NCBI GenBank assembly: GCA_016200585.1
Contig: JACQEN010000006.1
Coordinates: forward strand, 1-36,209
Reading direction: 5' to 3'
DNA: 36,209 nt
Origin: Deltaproteobacteria bacterium
GTDB lineage: Bacteria; Desulfobacterota; Binatia; HRBIN30
In this document: positions 13,147-19,885 of the stretch, one piece after another
Position numbering within the stretch: position 1 is the first letter of the stretch
Layout: each line of letters starts with the position of its first letter
The notes under the pieces: generated by a model
Databases searched by the model: none
The model's input: the letters and a program-made list of their open reading frames with translations, nothing else
What the model was told of the DNA's origin: nothing
Position numbers and translations under genes: made by a program

Positions 13147-14333
13147 CTACGTCCTTTCGCGCGCTGCCGCCAGCAACTCCTCACGGAAATCGGGATGCGC
13201 AATGCCCGCCAATGCCACGGCACGTTCGCTGTCCGTGAGCATACCCAGATTTGCCGCGCCGTGCTCGGTGACGATGTACTGCACGTGGTGTCGCGGCGTC
13301 GAAACCGGCGTACCAGACGGCAGCTGCGGCACGATCGTCGAGACCAACTTCCCGTCGACCCGCGCCGTCGAGTGCAAACAGATCGTGCTCTTGCCGCCCG
13401 GGCTGTCGTGCGCGCCGATGACGAAGAGCTCGTGCCCGCCGACGCCCGAGTACTGCCGCGGGCCCACGGTGTCGGCCATGATCTGTCCGCTGAGATCGAC
13501 CGCCAACGCGCCGTTGATGCTCACCATGTTGCGGTTCAAGCGGATGATCGCCGGGTCGTTGACCTGTGCCACCGGCAACATGCGGACTTCGGGATTGCGG
13601 TCCATCCAGCGGTACAGCTCGCGGCTGCCGGCGCCGAACGTCGCAATCGAAAAGCCGTCGTAGACTCCCTTGTGGTTGGAGATTTTGCCGGCCTGGTGCA
13701 GGTGCATGATGCCGTCGACCATCATCTCGGTGTGAATCCCGAAGTCGCCCTTCTTCCCCTCCGCCAGGAGTTGAGCAATCAGGTTCGGAATTCCGCCGAT
13801 GCCGATTTGCAGAGTCGCGCCGTTCTCGATGAGATGTTCGACGTGCGCGGCAATCGCCCGGTCGTCATCGACAACCTCCTGCGGCGGCAACTCGAAGATC
13901 GAGCGCTCGGATTCGATGATGCAGTCGACTTCCGAAACGTGGATGCGATTTCCGCCAAAGCGTCCGAGCCCGAGCACGTGCGGCATTTCGCGATTGACCT
14001 CGGCGATCGCCAAACGGGGAAGTCGGCAGGCAGATACTGAACCCGTGCGCCCATCGCCTTCATCATGCGTTCGATCGGCCCGTAAAAGCCGCTGACCAGG
14101 CGCACCCCCGGCTGCTGCAAGACCGAGTAGGGCTCGATCAGCAGGCCGGAGAACAGCAGCAGATCGGTGAAGTCATTGCGTTCACCCAGGGCGCTCAGGA
14201 ACATCGACGGCTGCCCCGTCGCAATCGGCGCCGCGAGGGTATCCTGCCGCTCAATCAGGCTGACGGCGTCGGCGACGCTGCGCCGCTTGCGGTCGTAGAT
14301 CATCTGCGCGTCGCCGTGTGTCGCTCGTGCCAT
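13147..14333 (-). pseudogene. Acetyl-CoA hydrolase / 4-hydroxybutyrate CoA-transferase family, frameshifted with internal deletion
   Basis: Two track ORFs in different frames are halves of one gene. The N-terminal half (start ATG at 14333, GGAG eight bases upstream) reads 'MIYDRKRRSVADAV' to 'GARVQYLPADF'. The C-terminal half continues in another frame from about 14017 with 'LAIAEVNREMPHVLG', includes the catalytic Glu in 'FGIHTEMMVDG', and runs to 'LGMLTDSERAVALAGIAHP'. In intact relatives about 45-60 residues lie between the 'YLPADF' strand and the 'IAEVN' strand, including the 'QVSPPDEHGY'-type segment; here they are missing and the frame changes at the junction. The product is most likely inactive unless the lesion is an assembly error. 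The reading of the deletion rests on remembered family structure. Confidence 0.8.
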
Positions 14334-14611: not shown

Positions 14612-14684
14612 TCCCCGGTAGCTCAGTCGGTAGAGCGTTCGGCTGTTAACCGAATTGTCGCTGGTTCGAGCCCGGCCCGGGGAG
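14612..14684 (+). tRNA. tRNA-Asn (anticodon GTT)
   Basis: A full cloverleaf can be drawn. Acceptor TCCCCGG pairs with CCGGGGA and is followed by discriminator G. The D arm is 'AGCTCAGTCGGTAGAGC'. The anticodon stem TTCGG/CCGAA encloses loop CTGTTAA with anticodon GTT at 14645-14647. The T arm GCTGG/CCGGC encloses TTCGAGC with one G-T pair. Length is 73 nt and CCA is not encoded. A long hairpin follows directly. Confidence 0.97.
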
Positions 14685-14691
14685 CTTTGAA

Positions 14692-14729
14692 ACCGAGGGG
14701 TTGGTTCCAAGAGGAACCAGCCCCTCGGT
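14692..14729 (+). terminator. Strong hairpin downstream of tRNA-Asn
   Basis: ACCGAGGGGTTGGTTCC and GGAACCAGCCCCTCGGT form a 17-bp stem (one G-T pair) with an AAGA loop, eight bases after the tRNA end, followed by GTTTG. Position and stability make it the tRNA transcript terminator, though the T tract is short. Confidence 0.8.
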
Positions 14730-14951: not shown

Positions 14952-15596
14952 ATGATCATGATTGCGATCACGCCCTGCGCGCATCGAAAGACGTCCAACT
15001 GCCAGGACTGCAACGATGAAGAGAAGTACGGCAAGGTGTGGAGTGAATACTCTCACCTTGTCTCAGGTAGGTTGTACGAATCGGAGCTCGGCGACTTGCC
15101 GAAGCTCTTCCCTTGTCAGGGGTGCGGCGGGAGCGGTTGGGTTGCGATCGTCGAGCCTCGGGTCTACTCAAAGAGTTACGGCTATTCGCCCGTGGTCGAG
15201 CACGACGAGATGTGTTCAGCATGTGGGGGAAGGAGAACGGACGCCGTACTCGTCCGTTCCCAATGGATTCCGTGCGATGACTGTCAAAGGGTGCGCAAGT
15301 CTGCTGCAGGTGGTACGCCGTGCAGGGACTGCCGTGGTCGAGGTCGGTTAGGGCTACTACGACGGCAAAAGTGCAACCGCTGCGACGGACTTGGGCGGGT
15401 CCACGAGTACTGCTTCAGCTGCCATGGGAAGGGCGGATACGAGTTGAGTGAGTATACGCTCAAGCCTGAGTATCTCCCCACGAGAATGAATCAGGCCATT
15501 GACTTTCTGCGCTCCCTGCCGCCGCAGCACCAAGCATACTTGCAACGCAAGATCGCAGAGTCCGCGGCAACGGACCCAAACCCCGGTCAGACGTAG
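14952..15596 (+). CDS. DnaJ-type cysteine-rich (CxxCxGxG) protein without J domain
   Basis: 214-residue protein with seven CXXC pairs: CQDC (17-20), CQGC (55-58), CSAC (88-91), CDDC (108-111), CRDC (124-127), CNRC (141-144) and CFSC (154-157). Several continue as the DnaJ zinc-finger repeat, e.g. 'CQGCGGSG', 'CRDCRGRG' and 'CFSCHGKGG'. There is no J domain, no G/F region and no signal peptide, so it is a soluble zinc-binding scaffold, chaperone-like or nucleic-acid-binding; the exact role is unknown. The start is one of three ATGs near 14952, preceded by GAGGACGACC. It heads a tight three-gene strand (gaps of 45 and 5 bp) just downstream of tRNA-Asn, suggesting acquisition and shared function. 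Confidence 0.75.
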   Translation: MIMIAITPCAHRKTSNCQDCNDEEKYGKVWSEYSHLVSGRLYESELGDLPKLFPCQGCGGSGWVAIVEPRVYSKSYGYSPVVEHDEMCSACGGRRTDAVLVRSQWIPCDDCQRVRKSAAGGTPCRDCRGRGRLGLLRRQKCNRCDGLGRVHEYCFSCHGKGGYELSEYTLKPEYLPTRMNQAIDFLRSLPPQHQAYLQRKIAESAATDPNPGQT

Positions 15597-15641
15597 TCGA
15601 ATCAACATCGAGGTCGTCGGAAACCTTAGATAGGGAATTTT

Positions 15642-16775
15642 ATGCCGTCCGTGAATCAATCAACCGTTCATGCTCATCGAGATCTGGTTCTCCGACTGTT
15701 GACAGACAACCCACTGACGGAGGCGGCCCTCGCTCTACTCCCCGAAGACGCGCGTGATACAGAGGTTTGGCAACAGTATTTCCTTGCGGAGGGAACAGCG
15801 GCCATCGAACAACTGCATCAGGCTGCTTCTCGTCGATTCGCCGCCCGTACCGCGACGACCACCGTCTTGGACAGATCGGCAGGCGGCCCAACAGCAGTGC
15901 ATTTCGTAGAGGTCAACACGTGCCTGGATCTCCAAGACGACGGGGGCATCGCCGTGCGCATCTTCGCACGGGGGAAGTCCGTCGGGCCCGTCGGGTGGGG
16001 TACTTCGGACATCCGGGAAGCCGGCCCCGGATACGCCCTCGTCGAGATCGAGGGCGAGTGCGGTACGGTGGACAACGAGTACTATGTCTGGGGTTCGCTG
16101 TTAGAAGACTGGCTCGAAGAACCCGACTGCCTCGAGAGGAGAAGATGGTGTCTGTTGCTGCGGGACGGTGCGTTGCTTGGTTTCTGCGAACGAACCGTCT
16201 CTTATCCTGCGCTAGAAATCCGCGAGGCCGTTCTTTGCACACGCGAAGGTCATCCGATTCCAACGAGTTTCTTACCACGTGATCTGCCGGCCGACATCGA
16301 AACGTTTCGCGAGGCTTTCGTCACCGGGGCTACTACCGCTCCCGTGTATCCGAGCCCAAGACGGCTATGCGGATCCTCCAAGAGCCATCACCACGATGGA
16401 GATGTGATTGCCTCCTTCTCATCCGGCGAGGCGGAGATACGCTTTGTTGTGAGGGAAGACGGCAGAAGCGTCCGACTAGAGGGTGATGGGGGATTCTCAA
16501 GGTACATCTGCAAAGTTGGTGGCTTTCGTCACGACGGCCGGGCAAACGACGAGAGAGGAACCCATCACATCCGCCTTCTGAACGTCAGGGAATCCGCCGG
16601 GGACACCTTTCTGGAGGGTGTGGCTCACTGTGTAGACCCCGACCGAACGGTCGCCAGGCGATTAATCATCGTCTTGAGGCACGGTCGGTTGATTGCGGTG
16701 TTCCCGATTGACGACCCGAACCTCACGATAGTCGCTGATGCAGTTTTGAGGACCGGATTCGTAGGAATGAGATAG
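15642..16775 (+). CDS. Hypothetical protein, 377 residues, possible internal duplication
   Basis: I do not recognise a family. It has no signal peptide or membrane segment. A helical N-terminal part (about 1-70, 'AHRDLVLRLLTDNPLTEAAL') precedes beta-rich sequence. Two stretches look like copies of each other: 'RRRWCLLLRDGALLGFCER' (~166-184) and 'ARRLIIVLRHGRLIAVFPI' (~343-361), each after a section with alternating hydrophobics and an acidic loop, hinting at two ~100-residue repeats. 'SKSHHHDGD' near residue 249 is a possible metal-binding loop. The ATG at 15642 follows AGGGAATTTT. It lies between the DnaJ-zinc-finger gene and the nucleotidyltransferase, only five bases before the latter, so the three are probably cotranscribed. 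Confidence 0.7.
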   Translation: MPSVNQSTVHAHRDLVLRLLTDNPLTEAALALLPEDARDTEVWQQYFLAEGTAAIEQLHQAASRRFAARTATTTVLDRSAGGPTAVHFVEVNTCLDLQDDGGIAVRIFARGKSVGPVGWGTSDIREAGPGYALVEIEGECGTVDNEYYVWGSLLEDWLEEPDCLERRRWCLLLRDGALLGFCERTVSYPALEIREAVLCTREGHPIPTSFLPRDLPADIETFREAFVTGATTAPVYPSPRRLCGSSKSHHHDGDVIASFSSGEAEIRFVVREDGRSVRLEGDGGFSRYICKVGGFRHDGRANDERGTHHIRLLNVRESAGDTFLEGVAHCVDPDRTVARRLIIVLRHGRLIAVFPIDDPNLTIVADAVLRTGFVGMR

Positions 16776-16780
16776 CCGGC

Positions 16781-17695
16781 ATGAAGGCGATTATTGCCGC
16801 CGGCGGCGACGCGACACGCGTCCGTCCAGCCCAGGACAAGTCTCAACAGATCGTCTACGACAAGCCTGTCCTGTACTATCTATTGACGAATGCGATGAAG
16901 GCACAGATCCGTGATGTGATGATCGTGTGCAACGAACGCAACGTTGCCGCCGCCGAGGCGCTTTTCCGCGATGCGGAATGGGAGTTCGGGGTAAACGTGA
17001 AGTTTGCGACGATAGCCGTGCCGAACGGCCCGGCTGGAGTATTCCGGCTGCCACAGGTGAGGCGGCACATAGGTACCGAGCCGGTTTGCCTGATTCTCGA
17101 CGGCATCTATCACGGCGGCAACTTCGATGAGGTTGTCCGCAGCTGTGCCAAGATCACTTCCGGTGCAACCGTGTTGGCAGCGCGCACTTCCGACCCACGG
17201 CCATATGGCTGGATCAACACCGACGCCAACGGGGATGCAATCGAAATCGTCGAGAAGCCGGGATTTGTACCAGAACCTGATCGCAGCTATCTGGTACAGA
17301 CACACATGTACTTCTACGGCCCCGAGGTGATCTACTTGGCGAGTCAGCTACTACCGTCAGACCGTAATCAATATGAGGTAACCGATCTTCATACTCGCTT
17401 CCTGAGTCAGCAATCGCTCGACATCAAGATTCTAGAGGACCGAGGCTGCCCTCTGCTTTGGGACGATGCGGGGACCGCAAGGAAACTGCTGGCCCTGGCC
17501 ATTGCGGTTAGGGGCATACAGGAAGATGGAAATGCAAGGACGTTGGTGGGATCGCCGCATCTTCAAGCGCTTCGAAATGGGTGGGTAACGAGTCGACAGA
17601 TTCGCGAGTTGTGTTCCCCATTCCTGAAGAGGGGGATCGAGTACTACGACGCGCTGAGCGCAGAGGTGACGAAGATCGGCGGGGAGATAGGCTAA
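16781..17695 (+). CDS. Divergent RmlA-like sugar-nucleotide nucleotidyltransferase
   Basis: 304-residue NTP_transferase-fold protein. It starts at the nucleotide loop 'MKAIIAAGGDATRVRP' (canonical GG-SGTRL-P) and continues 'DKSQQIVYDKPVLYYLLT', which resembles the RmlA 'SKQLLPVYDKPMIYYPL' segment but is about three residues shorter upstream and lacks L-P. The metal-site Asp survives in 'VCLILDGIYHGGNF', without the usual G-D-N-I; 'EIVEKPGFVPEPD' holds the sugar-binding EKP; 'LLWDDAGTARKLL' matches the W-x-D-T-G-T region. So the fold is RmlA, but the altered nucleotide and metal loops make dTDP-glucose synthesis uncertain. No other nucleotide-sugar gene is adjacent. Its stop codon overlaps the convergent GMC oxidoreductase stop in CTAA. 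Confidence 0.8.
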   Translation: MKAIIAAGGDATRVRPAQDKSQQIVYDKPVLYYLLTNAMKAQIRDVMIVCNERNVAAAEALFRDAEWEFGVNVKFATIAVPNGPAGVFRLPQVRRHIGTEPVCLILDGIYHGGNFDEVVRSCAKITSGATVLAARTSDPRPYGWINTDANGDAIEIVEKPGFVPEPDRSYLVQTHMYFYGPEVIYLASQLLPSDRNQYEVTDLHTRFLSQQSLDIKILEDRGCPLLWDDAGTARKLLALAIAVRGIQEDGNARTLVGSPHLQALRNGWVTSRQIRELCSPFLKRGIEYYDALSAEVTKIGGEIG

Positions 17696-19374
17696 CCCTG
17701 TGCGCTGAGGCGCCCGATGAGTCGATCCGCAGTGCGGACCGCCAGGGCCATGATGGTCAGCGATGGCGCGTCGCCGCTGCCGCTCGAGGGCACAACCGCT
17801 CCACCGGCGAAGGCGAGATTGGGCACCTCGTGACTGATGCCGTCACCATCGGCTACGGCCGTCTGCCGATCAGTTCCCATGCGGCAGGTGCCGAGCACAT
17901 GCGCCGCGGAGAAGCGGTCGAGCGCCGACGTCTCCTCTACGATCTCAGCGCCCGGTACGGCCCCAAACACCGCTCGCGTCGTGTCGGCCATGTGCCGCAG
18001 CAACTGGCGCTCGTTGTCACCGAGCTGCGAGTGAATGCGCGCCACGGGAAGGCCGGTAGCGTCGCGCAGCGATGGATCCAGGTCGACGTAGGTTTCCTGG
18101 TTCGGCAGCCACTCGCCCATGGCGATGAGGCCGACGGCGTGCCCGAACTGCGCCGCCATGCGCTCTTGATGGGCCCGCCCGAACCCAGCGATGAACCGCT
18201 GTGCATACGCCGCGGGACCTCGCAACCCCAGCGCGCCATGCGCCGTCGACAGTCGAAAGCCGCCGACATAGCCGCGTGGCGACTCGTTCGGCACAGCAAA
18301 CCGCCACGCCGTTCCGTCGATCGGTTGTCCGCGATGTGCATCGACACGCTCCGGCAACATTGCCACGGCCGACCAATGGAGGTGCTCGGTAAGATGCAAA
18401 CCGACCTGCCCGCTGTTGTTGGCAAGTCCGTGCGGGAATCGTTTCGATTTGGACAGCAGCAGCAAGCGCGGCGTTTCAATTGCCCCACACGCGACAATCA
18501 CGGCATTGCAAGATAAACGCTCTCGCGTACCGTCCGGCTTGGCGTAGGCGACAGCGTTGACGCGGCCAGCGCCGTCCACCTCCAACTCGACCACCTGGAC
18601 ATCGGCATATAGATCGAGGCGCTTCGTACCAGCGGCGGGTGGAAGGAAGACCACGTCGGCGCTTGCCTTGTCTCCCAATGGACAACCTTGCGTGCACGAA
18701 TTGCAGTAGTTGCACGGCGGACGACCGTTGTGCGGCTGCGACAAGATCGCCAACGAGTTGGCCACGAGCGGAGCTCCGATAGCCTCGAACGCAGCAGATA
18801 GCCGACGACTTGCGTACGACAGCCCGTGCGGCGGCAGCGGTGGCGCTTTGCTGCGAGGCCGCCATTCGTTCCCAGAAGGTGCGGCTACGCCGATGTGCTC
18901 TTCGATGATCTCGTAGTAGCGCTCGAGCTCGCTGTAGGAGAGCGGCCAATCGGTGCCCTCGCCGAAGCGCGAACGCATCTCCAGCGCGTACGGATGGAAT
19001 CGGTGCGCTTCACCTTGGAAGTGCAGCGTGCTGCCACCAACGCCACGTACGTGTTCGTAACGCACGAAGTCGCGACGATCGCCGTTCACGTACCGCCCGA
19101 AGACTCGATCGAACGAACGATAGGCTTCCCACTCGGGTCCAATCTCCTGCCCTACTCCAAAACCGTAACGTGGACGTCCCTCTGCATCGCGCTCCGGGTC
19201 GTATGGAAAATCGTGCCGCTCAAAATCGTCTTGCGTTTGCGGATAGTCGACCGCTGGTGAGAAGCGCCGTCCGCTCTCGAGCAGCGCGACGCGGACGCCA
19301 CGGCTCGTCAGCCGCCAGGCCGCTGCCAGCCCGCCCGGGCCGCCGCCGATGATCACAATCTCTGTGTCACCCAT
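17692..19374 (-). CDS. GMC-family FAD oxidoreductase (gluconate/sugar dehydrogenase large subunit type)
   Basis: 560-residue flavoprotein. The FAD-binding motif is 'IVIIGGGPGGLAAAWRL' (6-22), followed by 'EHVRGVGGSTLHFQGEAHR' for FAD attachment and a cysteine cluster 'CNYCNSCTQGCPLGD' (C-X2-C-X2-C-X3-C) that could bind an Fe-S cluster, as in some GMC dehydrogenases. The C-terminal substrate domain has 'AAHVLGTCRMG' with the catalytic His and 'FAGGAVVPSSGSGDAPSLT'. The protein has no signal peptide, so export by hitch-hiking with the Tat-type small subunit is likely. Start ATG at 19374 overlaps the subunit-3 stop by eight bases; the track's 129-codon extension is a shadow. Substrate unknown, probably a polyol, sugar acid or alcohol. 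Confidence 0.92.
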   Translation of the reverse strand: MGDTEIVIIGGGPGGLAAAWRLTSRGVRVALLESGRRFSPAVDYPQTQDDFERHDFPYDPERDAEGRPRYGFGVGQEIGPEWEAYRSFDRVFGRYVNGDRRDFVRYEHVRGVGGSTLHFQGEAHRFHPYALEMRSRFGEGTDWPLSYSELERYYEIIEEHIGVAAPSGNEWRPRSKAPPLPPHGLSYASRRLSAAFEAIGAPLVANSLAILSQPHNGRPPCNYCNSCTQGCPLGDKASADVVFLPPAAGTKRLDLYADVQVVELEVDGAGRVNAVAYAKPDGTRERLSCNAVIVACGAIETPRLLLLSKSKRFPHGLANNSGQVGLHLTEHLHWSAVAMLPERVDAHRGQPIDGTAWRFAVPNESPRGYVGGFRLSTAHGALGLRGPAAYAQRFIAGFGRAHQERMAAQFGHAVGLIAMGEWLPNQETYVDLDPSLRDATGLPVARIHSQLGDNERQLLRHMADTTRAVFGAVPGAEIVEETSALDRFSAAHVLGTCRMGTDRQTAVADGDGISHEVPNLAFAGGAVVPSSGSGDAPSLTIMALAVRTADRLIGRLSAQG

Positions 19375-19885
19375 GCGGCGCCTGTTCGTAGTCCGGATAG
19401 CCTCCCGGTTGCGGTCCGTGCGACATACCGACCGATTTCCACGCCAGCGGGTGGGTATAGTGCAAGCGCATCGCCCGATCGCGAACCGTACGGAAGAAGA
19501 ACCAAGGCAGCGACTCGTTCTCCGCTGCCGCGCATTCCGCCAGCACCGCCTCACGCTCGGAGATGGGGAGAGCTTCAAAAGACAGCGCGGCCCGGCGCCG
19601 GGCCGCGCGTTCGACGAGCGCAACACCCTCGACCAGCGCGCGTCGCGTTTGCCGCGTCGCTTCGCACTCATCCACCAGACGGTCGAGAACGCCGGTCTGC
19701 CGTGCACCAGGCACGTAACCGTCAGGAATGAGCGTATCGAGCACCACTTCCAGCGTCGCACGTTCGCGACTGCCGATGCGGGACGGAAGAAAAATGCGGC
19801 GCAAGATGTCGGCGCCGGTCAGGAGCAATATCGCTCCAATGGCGCGGCGTAGGAAGACACGCCTGTTCCAACGCAGCCAGTGCAC
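19367..19885 (-). CDS. Gluconate 2-dehydrogenase subunit 3-like protein with Tat-type signal
   Basis: 172-residue small partner of the GMC flavoprotein. The N-terminus 'NRRVFLRRAIGAILLLTG' (7-24) is a twin-arginine-type signal or anchor (R8-R9-x-F-L). The body has 'SRERATLEVVLDTLIPDG' and 'LPWFFFRTVRDRAMRLHYTHP', where the last part matches the conserved end of the subunit 3 family, including the 'W..VG...GPQPGGYPDY' tail. In characterised enzymes this subunit carries the complex through Tat and stabilises the flavoprotein. The start is a GTG at 19885 with a weak RBS. It overlaps the GMC gene, so translation is coupled. Confidence 0.9.
   Translation of the reverse strand: MHWLRWNRRVFLRRAIGAILLLTGADILRRIFLPSRIGSRERATLEVVLDTLIPDGYVPGARQTGVLDRLVDECEATRQTRRALVEGVALVERAARRRAALSFEALPISEREAVLAECAAAENESLPWFFFRTVRDRAMRLHYTHPLAWKSVGMSHGPQPGGYPDYEQAPHG

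Follow-up and report, generated by a model that had tools for sequence, protein, structure and literature searches.

A lineage-specific three-gene block with a strongly diverged RmlA-type nucleotidyltransferase 3' of tRNA-Asn in a Binatia genome

We found that three consecutive genes on the same strand, 3' of a tRNA-Asn gene and its hairpin, form a block with the appearance of an accessory insertion specific to this lineage; sister genomes with conserved flanks lack it. The block lies in a deltaproteobacterial contig of the class Binatia, in the window of 36,209 nucleotides that constitutes the whole stretch analysed (Table 1). It is known from this single locus, with no second copy in the collections searched, and was most likely acquired horizontally, although composition alone is no proof of transfer. 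As a lineage-specific insertion of orphan genes the block is of an ordinary kind; its interesting component is a heavily re-worked paralogue of RmlA. The reading that we prefer, and hold tentatively, is that of an accessory operon in which a re-specialised RmlA-type nucleotidyltransferase is joined by a zinc-finger helper and by an orphan, beta-rich partner protein, and which acts by a mechanism that we infer.

Table 1. Features of the window and related loci in other contigs and genomes
Feature	Position	Strand	Remarks
Acetyl-CoA hydrolase/transferase flank	13147..14333	-	Pfam; broken
tRNA-Asn (GTT), intact	14612..14685	+	ARAGORN; Rfam RF00005, 66.9 bits
Terminator-type hairpin of tRNA-Asn	14692..14729	+	17-bp arms, 94% complementary
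Gene 1	14952..15596	+	214 aa; zinc-finger-type, DnaJ-type protein, seven CXXC, without J domain
Gene 2	15642..16775	+	377 aa; orphan
Gene 3	16781..17695	+	304 aa; strongly diverged RmlA-type sugar-1-phosphate nucleotidyltransferase
GMC oxidoreductase flank	17692..19299	-	Pfam; convergent with gene 3, 4-bp overlap
Gluconate dehydrogenase subunit 3, paired with GMC oxidoreductase	19367..19885
Paralogue of the GMC oxidoreductase; of the pair (same genome)	G000:C282:2517-4112; L107:1946-4112		74%; another contig
Canonical RmlA, same genome	G000:C231:38996-39808
Avs2 in G008	L100:6859-11544	-	1561 aa; PADLOC E = 0
DUF433/DUF5615 pair in G004	L101:2150-3346		between two tRNA-Asn copies
Group I intron in tRNA-Asn	L124:4929-5174	+	Rfam RF00028
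Group I intron in tRNA-Asn	L125:10427-10673	-	Rfam RF00028
Group I intron in tRNA-Asn	L123:10710-10969	-	Rfam RF00028
Group I intron in tRNA-Asn	L110:6126-6386	+	Rfam RF00028

The three open reading frames have exactly the coordinates, and the intergenic gaps of 45 and 5 bp, given for them in an earlier note made from the sequence alone. We consider them to be real genes rather than chance frames because they are long, consecutive and on the same strand, and because one of them has clear homology. Their shared strand and short gaps suggest that they are co-transcribed; a consensus promoter for the block was not found. As the source assembly is a fragmented genome, 85% complete, a local assembly artefact at the block is possible.

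A search with the 377-residue product of gene 2, which the earlier note had called for, found this protein in its own genome only, across class, phylum, viral, phage and plasmid sets. It is absent from the other 147 of 148 class genomes and from the phylum genomes searched (about 380-395), and no credible relative was found among 98 relatives, in which three short matches (E = 0.005-0.009) were taken as chance. Exact-peptide scans, whose reach is limited to close relatives, returned only the own genome from about 85,000 species and from viral contigs, as tblastn confirmed, and nothing from the phage and plasmid collections. For gene 3, the closest protein found is only about 38% identical, and peptide scans gave no close relative. 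Gene 1 is just as private to this genome: 145 relatives and 390 genomes of the phylum yielded only short similarity confined to CXXC motifs. None of the three genes turned up separately at another locus, and the block does not belong to the core genome; the reading that it consists of ordinary core genes was rejected, as the block is absent from class relatives. A literature search found no text linking such a trio.

The block also differs from its surroundings in composition. Its GC content is 57-59%, whereas most of the window has about 62-65% and a few other segments fall to 59%. The GC3 of genes 1, 2 and 3 is 0.69, 0.63 and 0.67, respectively, against 0.77 +/- 0.04, and the corresponding codon-usage scores relative to local genes are z = -2.5, -4.2 and -2.7. 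That these departures (low GC, low GC3, atypical codons) occur where synteny is otherwise conserved is the basis for reading the block as a lineage-specific insertion.

This synteny is seen most fully in genomes G003 and G005, where RecG and cytochrome c are followed by a small conserved protein, which in the window is cytochrome c', and then by tRNA-Asn, variable genes, CoA hydrolase, QueT, ABC and CbiQ. G006 keeps the RecG-cytochrome c-tRNA part of this arrangement, and G001 the tRNA-QueT-ABC-CbiQ part, with the tRNA oriented as in the window. Gene content on the 3' side of tRNA-Asn varies among sister genomes; between G003 and G005, nucleotide similarity ends at the 3' end of the tRNA gene and returns 1.2-1.8 kb further on, which indicates that this side is a variable spot. 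The operon that we propose would occupy the variable segment that separates tRNA-Asn from the conserved cytochrome c', cytochrome c and RecG genes, most likely as a horizontally acquired, lineage-specific unit. Relative to its conserved neighbours, tRNA-Asn is inverted in G003, G005 and G006 (L102, L103 and L104) compared with the window and G001 (L098). Because of this inversion, and because G001 differs beyond the hairpin, the exact empty junction is not definable; the comparison with sister genomes, which had been suggested as a search for an empty site, established that the block is absent and the 3' side variable, but yielded no clean junction.

Other changes are found next to the block. 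The GMC oxidoreductase/gluconate dehydrogenase subunit 3 pair is another insertion by comparison with sister genomes, as tblastn found no such pair between the cytochrome and the tRNA in G003, G005 and G006; this pair (17692-19885 as a whole) has a paralogue elsewhere in the same genome (Table 1). On the other side, the acetyl-CoA hydrolase/transferase gene has an internal deletion (about 140 bp relative to G002) and a frame change near 14010, and is either broken or misassembled.

The tRNA-Asn gene itself is conserved in 26 of the 29 genomes searched. A similar hairpin lies 3' of it in G001, G008 and G010, so that the hairpin is ancestral and sits before the insert. What had been taken for a partial copy of tRNA-Asn in G010 was rejected, as it proved to be tRNA-Lys. 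We found no second copy of the 26-nt tRNA-Asn 3' end (attR) with up to three mismatches, no direct repeat of at least 11 bp across the block and no integrase among the window proteins scanned, in agreement with the earlier note, which had seen neither an integrase nor a duplicated tRNA end. That note had nevertheless guessed at insertion into the tRNA 3' end. An insertion-like, non-core and lineage-restricted block is what we observe, but the proposed point of entry is not supported: the native terminator is kept between tRNA-Asn and the block, and with neither attR, target duplication nor integrase we rejected classical tRNA-end integration. Unlike a tRNA-integrated genomic island, the block does not start at the tRNA end and has not displaced the native terminator.

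By family score, the product of gene 3 is assigned to the sugar-nucleotidyltransferase superfamily (PF00483, NTP_transferase; E = 6e-30, 105 bits over residues 2-239, above the gathering threshold of 21.2). It is RmlA-like over its full length, C-terminal region included, with 33-38% identity to RmlA/RfbA, glucose-1-phosphate thymidylyltransferase (TIGR01207; PDB 6n0u and 1fxo). It differs from that enzyme in scoring below the curated equivalog cutoff (E = 3e-49, 167.5 bits against 360.65 bits), in having Gly for the base-contacting Gln and in not lying beside rmlBCD; rmlB, rmlC and rmlD, which are usual but not obligatory neighbours of RmlA, have no representatives of their families among the window proteins scanned. 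The earlier note had described this enzyme as aberrant, and the departure can be quantified: when compared with 31 RmlA proteins from genomes of the same phylum, gene 3 is off-pattern at 60 of 115 near-invariant alignment columns, whereas each of the canonical RmlAs is off-pattern at five or fewer (leave-one-out count). Among the changed motifs are GSGTR (GDATR in gene 3), SKQLLP (KSQQI), LGDN (LDG, with a residue lost) and WLDTGTH (WDDAGT). The nucleotide loop is shortened by a three-residue gap relative to RmlA, and G86 stands at the thymine-contact position, aligned with Q82, the base-contacting Gln of P. aeruginosa RmlA.

Several catalytic-site residues of gene 3, namely T12-R13, D107, the E158-K159 region (the EKP lysine), the Arg of SDRNQYEVTD and D229, fall in the alignment on positions that are conserved in RmlA, which makes activity plausible. 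K20 corresponds to the lysine of the RmlA SKQ loop in one alignment, but not in another; as this match is alignment-dependent and LGDN has lost a residue, gene 3 could also be inactive. On balance, catalysis with altered specificity is plausible from these alignments. The genome also encodes a canonical RmlA at another locus (Table 1), which would have left the gene 3 copy free to diverge. In the operon that we favour, gene 3 would be the enzymatic core, probably still activating a sugar-1-phosphate (or a related phosphate) with an altered choice of nucleotide. Activity with a different specificity would make it an RmlA paralogue recruited outside sugar-nucleotide pathways. The retention of full-length RmlA homology, C-terminal region included, could also be accommodated if these were surface-glycan or secondary-metabolite genes, with gene 3 an NDP-sugar synthase for an unusual sugar that has become separated from the usual pathway genes. 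We regard this as unlikely, since neither gene 1 nor gene 2 is a glycan gene and no glycosyltransferase, epimerase or dehydratase family is represented among the window proteins scanned.

Gene 1 was described in the earlier note as a DnaJ-type zinc protein with seven CXXC motifs and no J domain, and both the sequence and a Pfam scan agree. The CXXC motifs are spread over about 140 residues and four of them are, by eye, full CXXCXGXG, as in the DnaJ central zinc domain (PF00684). This domain gives the sole family signal, which is sub-threshold (E = 1e-4, 22.7 bits, against a cutoff of 32.7). Gene 1 differs from DnaJ/Hsp40 in this score and in having neither the J domain (PF00226, absent in the Pfam scan) nor the C-terminal substrate domain. 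Two distant matches at E = 1e-6, to a full DnaJ (L128) and to a small zinc protein adjoining an AAA ATPase (L129), were rejected as counterparts because the similarity is confined to CXXC motifs and the context differs from that of the block. A DnaJ-like zinc motif is likewise found in the phage antitermination protein Q (PDB 7ubj; phrog_127), but the matches of gene 1 to this protein are weak and not significant (E = 0.97 and 0.029), and other features of Q are missing from gene 1. Within the proposed operon, gene 1 would most likely act as a scaffold or holding helper.

Searches of Pfam, NCBIfam, PADLOC and PHROGs assign gene 2 to no family, and PDB sequences gave nothing credible, so that it is, as first described, a protein of no recognised family. 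Its codon signal is weak, as the score given above indicates, but it is likely to be coding because its 377-codon frame is open and a purine-rich AGGGAA lies just 5' of the ATG. A helical N-terminus is followed by two beta-rich halves, which may, weakly, represent a duplicated domain. The alignment is suggestive (36% identity between the halves as aligned by MAFFT); a duplication was not credited, however, given that BLASTP gave no match and that a shuffle test gave fractions of 0.008-0.2, depending on scoring. A profile built from both halves found no relative, its lone match at E = 0.007 being taken as chance, and its match to agmatine deiminase in the PDB (E = 0.013) was not credited. AlphaFold models were poor (pLDDT 38 for the whole protein and 51 for the C-terminal half), and Foldseek searching yielded nothing below E = 0.2. 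The part that we tentatively ascribe to gene 2 in the operon is that of an orphan beta-rich partner or target.

The weak codon signal of gene 2 also bears on whether the block is decaying or neutral cargo, that is, fast-evolving ORFans and a pseudo-enzyme with no present function. The residue changes of gene 3 at the Q82-, GSGTR- and LGDN-type positions would fit such decay, as would the broken CoA hydrolase gene that adjoins the block. Stops are usual in a decaying block, however, and here none of the three frames is interrupted over a total of 895 codons, and their spacing is tight; we therefore think decay improbable.

The earlier note had also guessed at a modification or defence module. 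In an anti-phage or toxin-antitoxin-like system, infection would prompt the nucleotidyltransferase to modify a molecule of the host or the phage, and the zinc protein and the orphan would serve as sensor or partner. In favour of this are the accessory nature and atypical composition of the block, and the defence-type genes that lie 3' of tRNA-Asn in some relatives (G008, G003, G004 and G024). None of the three block proteins, however, has a PADLOC match up to E = 1, and a known defence family was rejected for them on this basis. RmlA-type enzymes are normally metabolic, and ordinary genes are found 3' of tRNA-Asn in most of 24 loci. Matched PADLOC models number 17 on the 3' side of tRNA-Asn (86 ORFs) and 14 on the 5' control side (90 ORFs), and many of the matches, on both sides, are housekeeping look-alikes. 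We thus consider a defence role distinctly unlikely, and make no claim that tRNA-Asn is a defence hotspot, as the individual cases are real but show no excess over the 5' side. Were the block to prove a defence system, its source would be a bacterial class that has been poorly sampled; at present it is a well-delimited orphan insertion and a candidate system only. It is highly improbable that the trio represents a novel module, confined to one lineage, whose re-specialised RmlA-type enzyme transfers a nucleotidyl or glycosyl group to a non-carbohydrate target, such as gene 2 or a molecule of a phage, and has the J-domain-less zinc protein as co-factor.

The defence-type genes of class relatives, Avs2 and toxin-antitoxin pairs among them, lie on the same side of the same tRNA gene as the block, but their proteins are unrelated to those of the block and their chromosomal contexts are different. 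In G008, a full-length Avs2 is convergent with tRNA-Asn and ends 242 bp 3' of it. A BrxA-like remnant lies 3' of tRNA-Asn in G003, and a MazE-like/PIN pair in the same position in G024. In G004, two complete copies of tRNA-Asn, 1.1 kb from each other and each with its own hairpin-like sequence downstream, enclose a DUF433/DUF5615 toxin-antitoxin-like pair. A literature search found no bacterial report of a group I intron splitting tRNA-Asn(GUU); in four class relatives (G021, G027, G020 and G026) this gene is split by such an intron (64-83 bits; Table 1).
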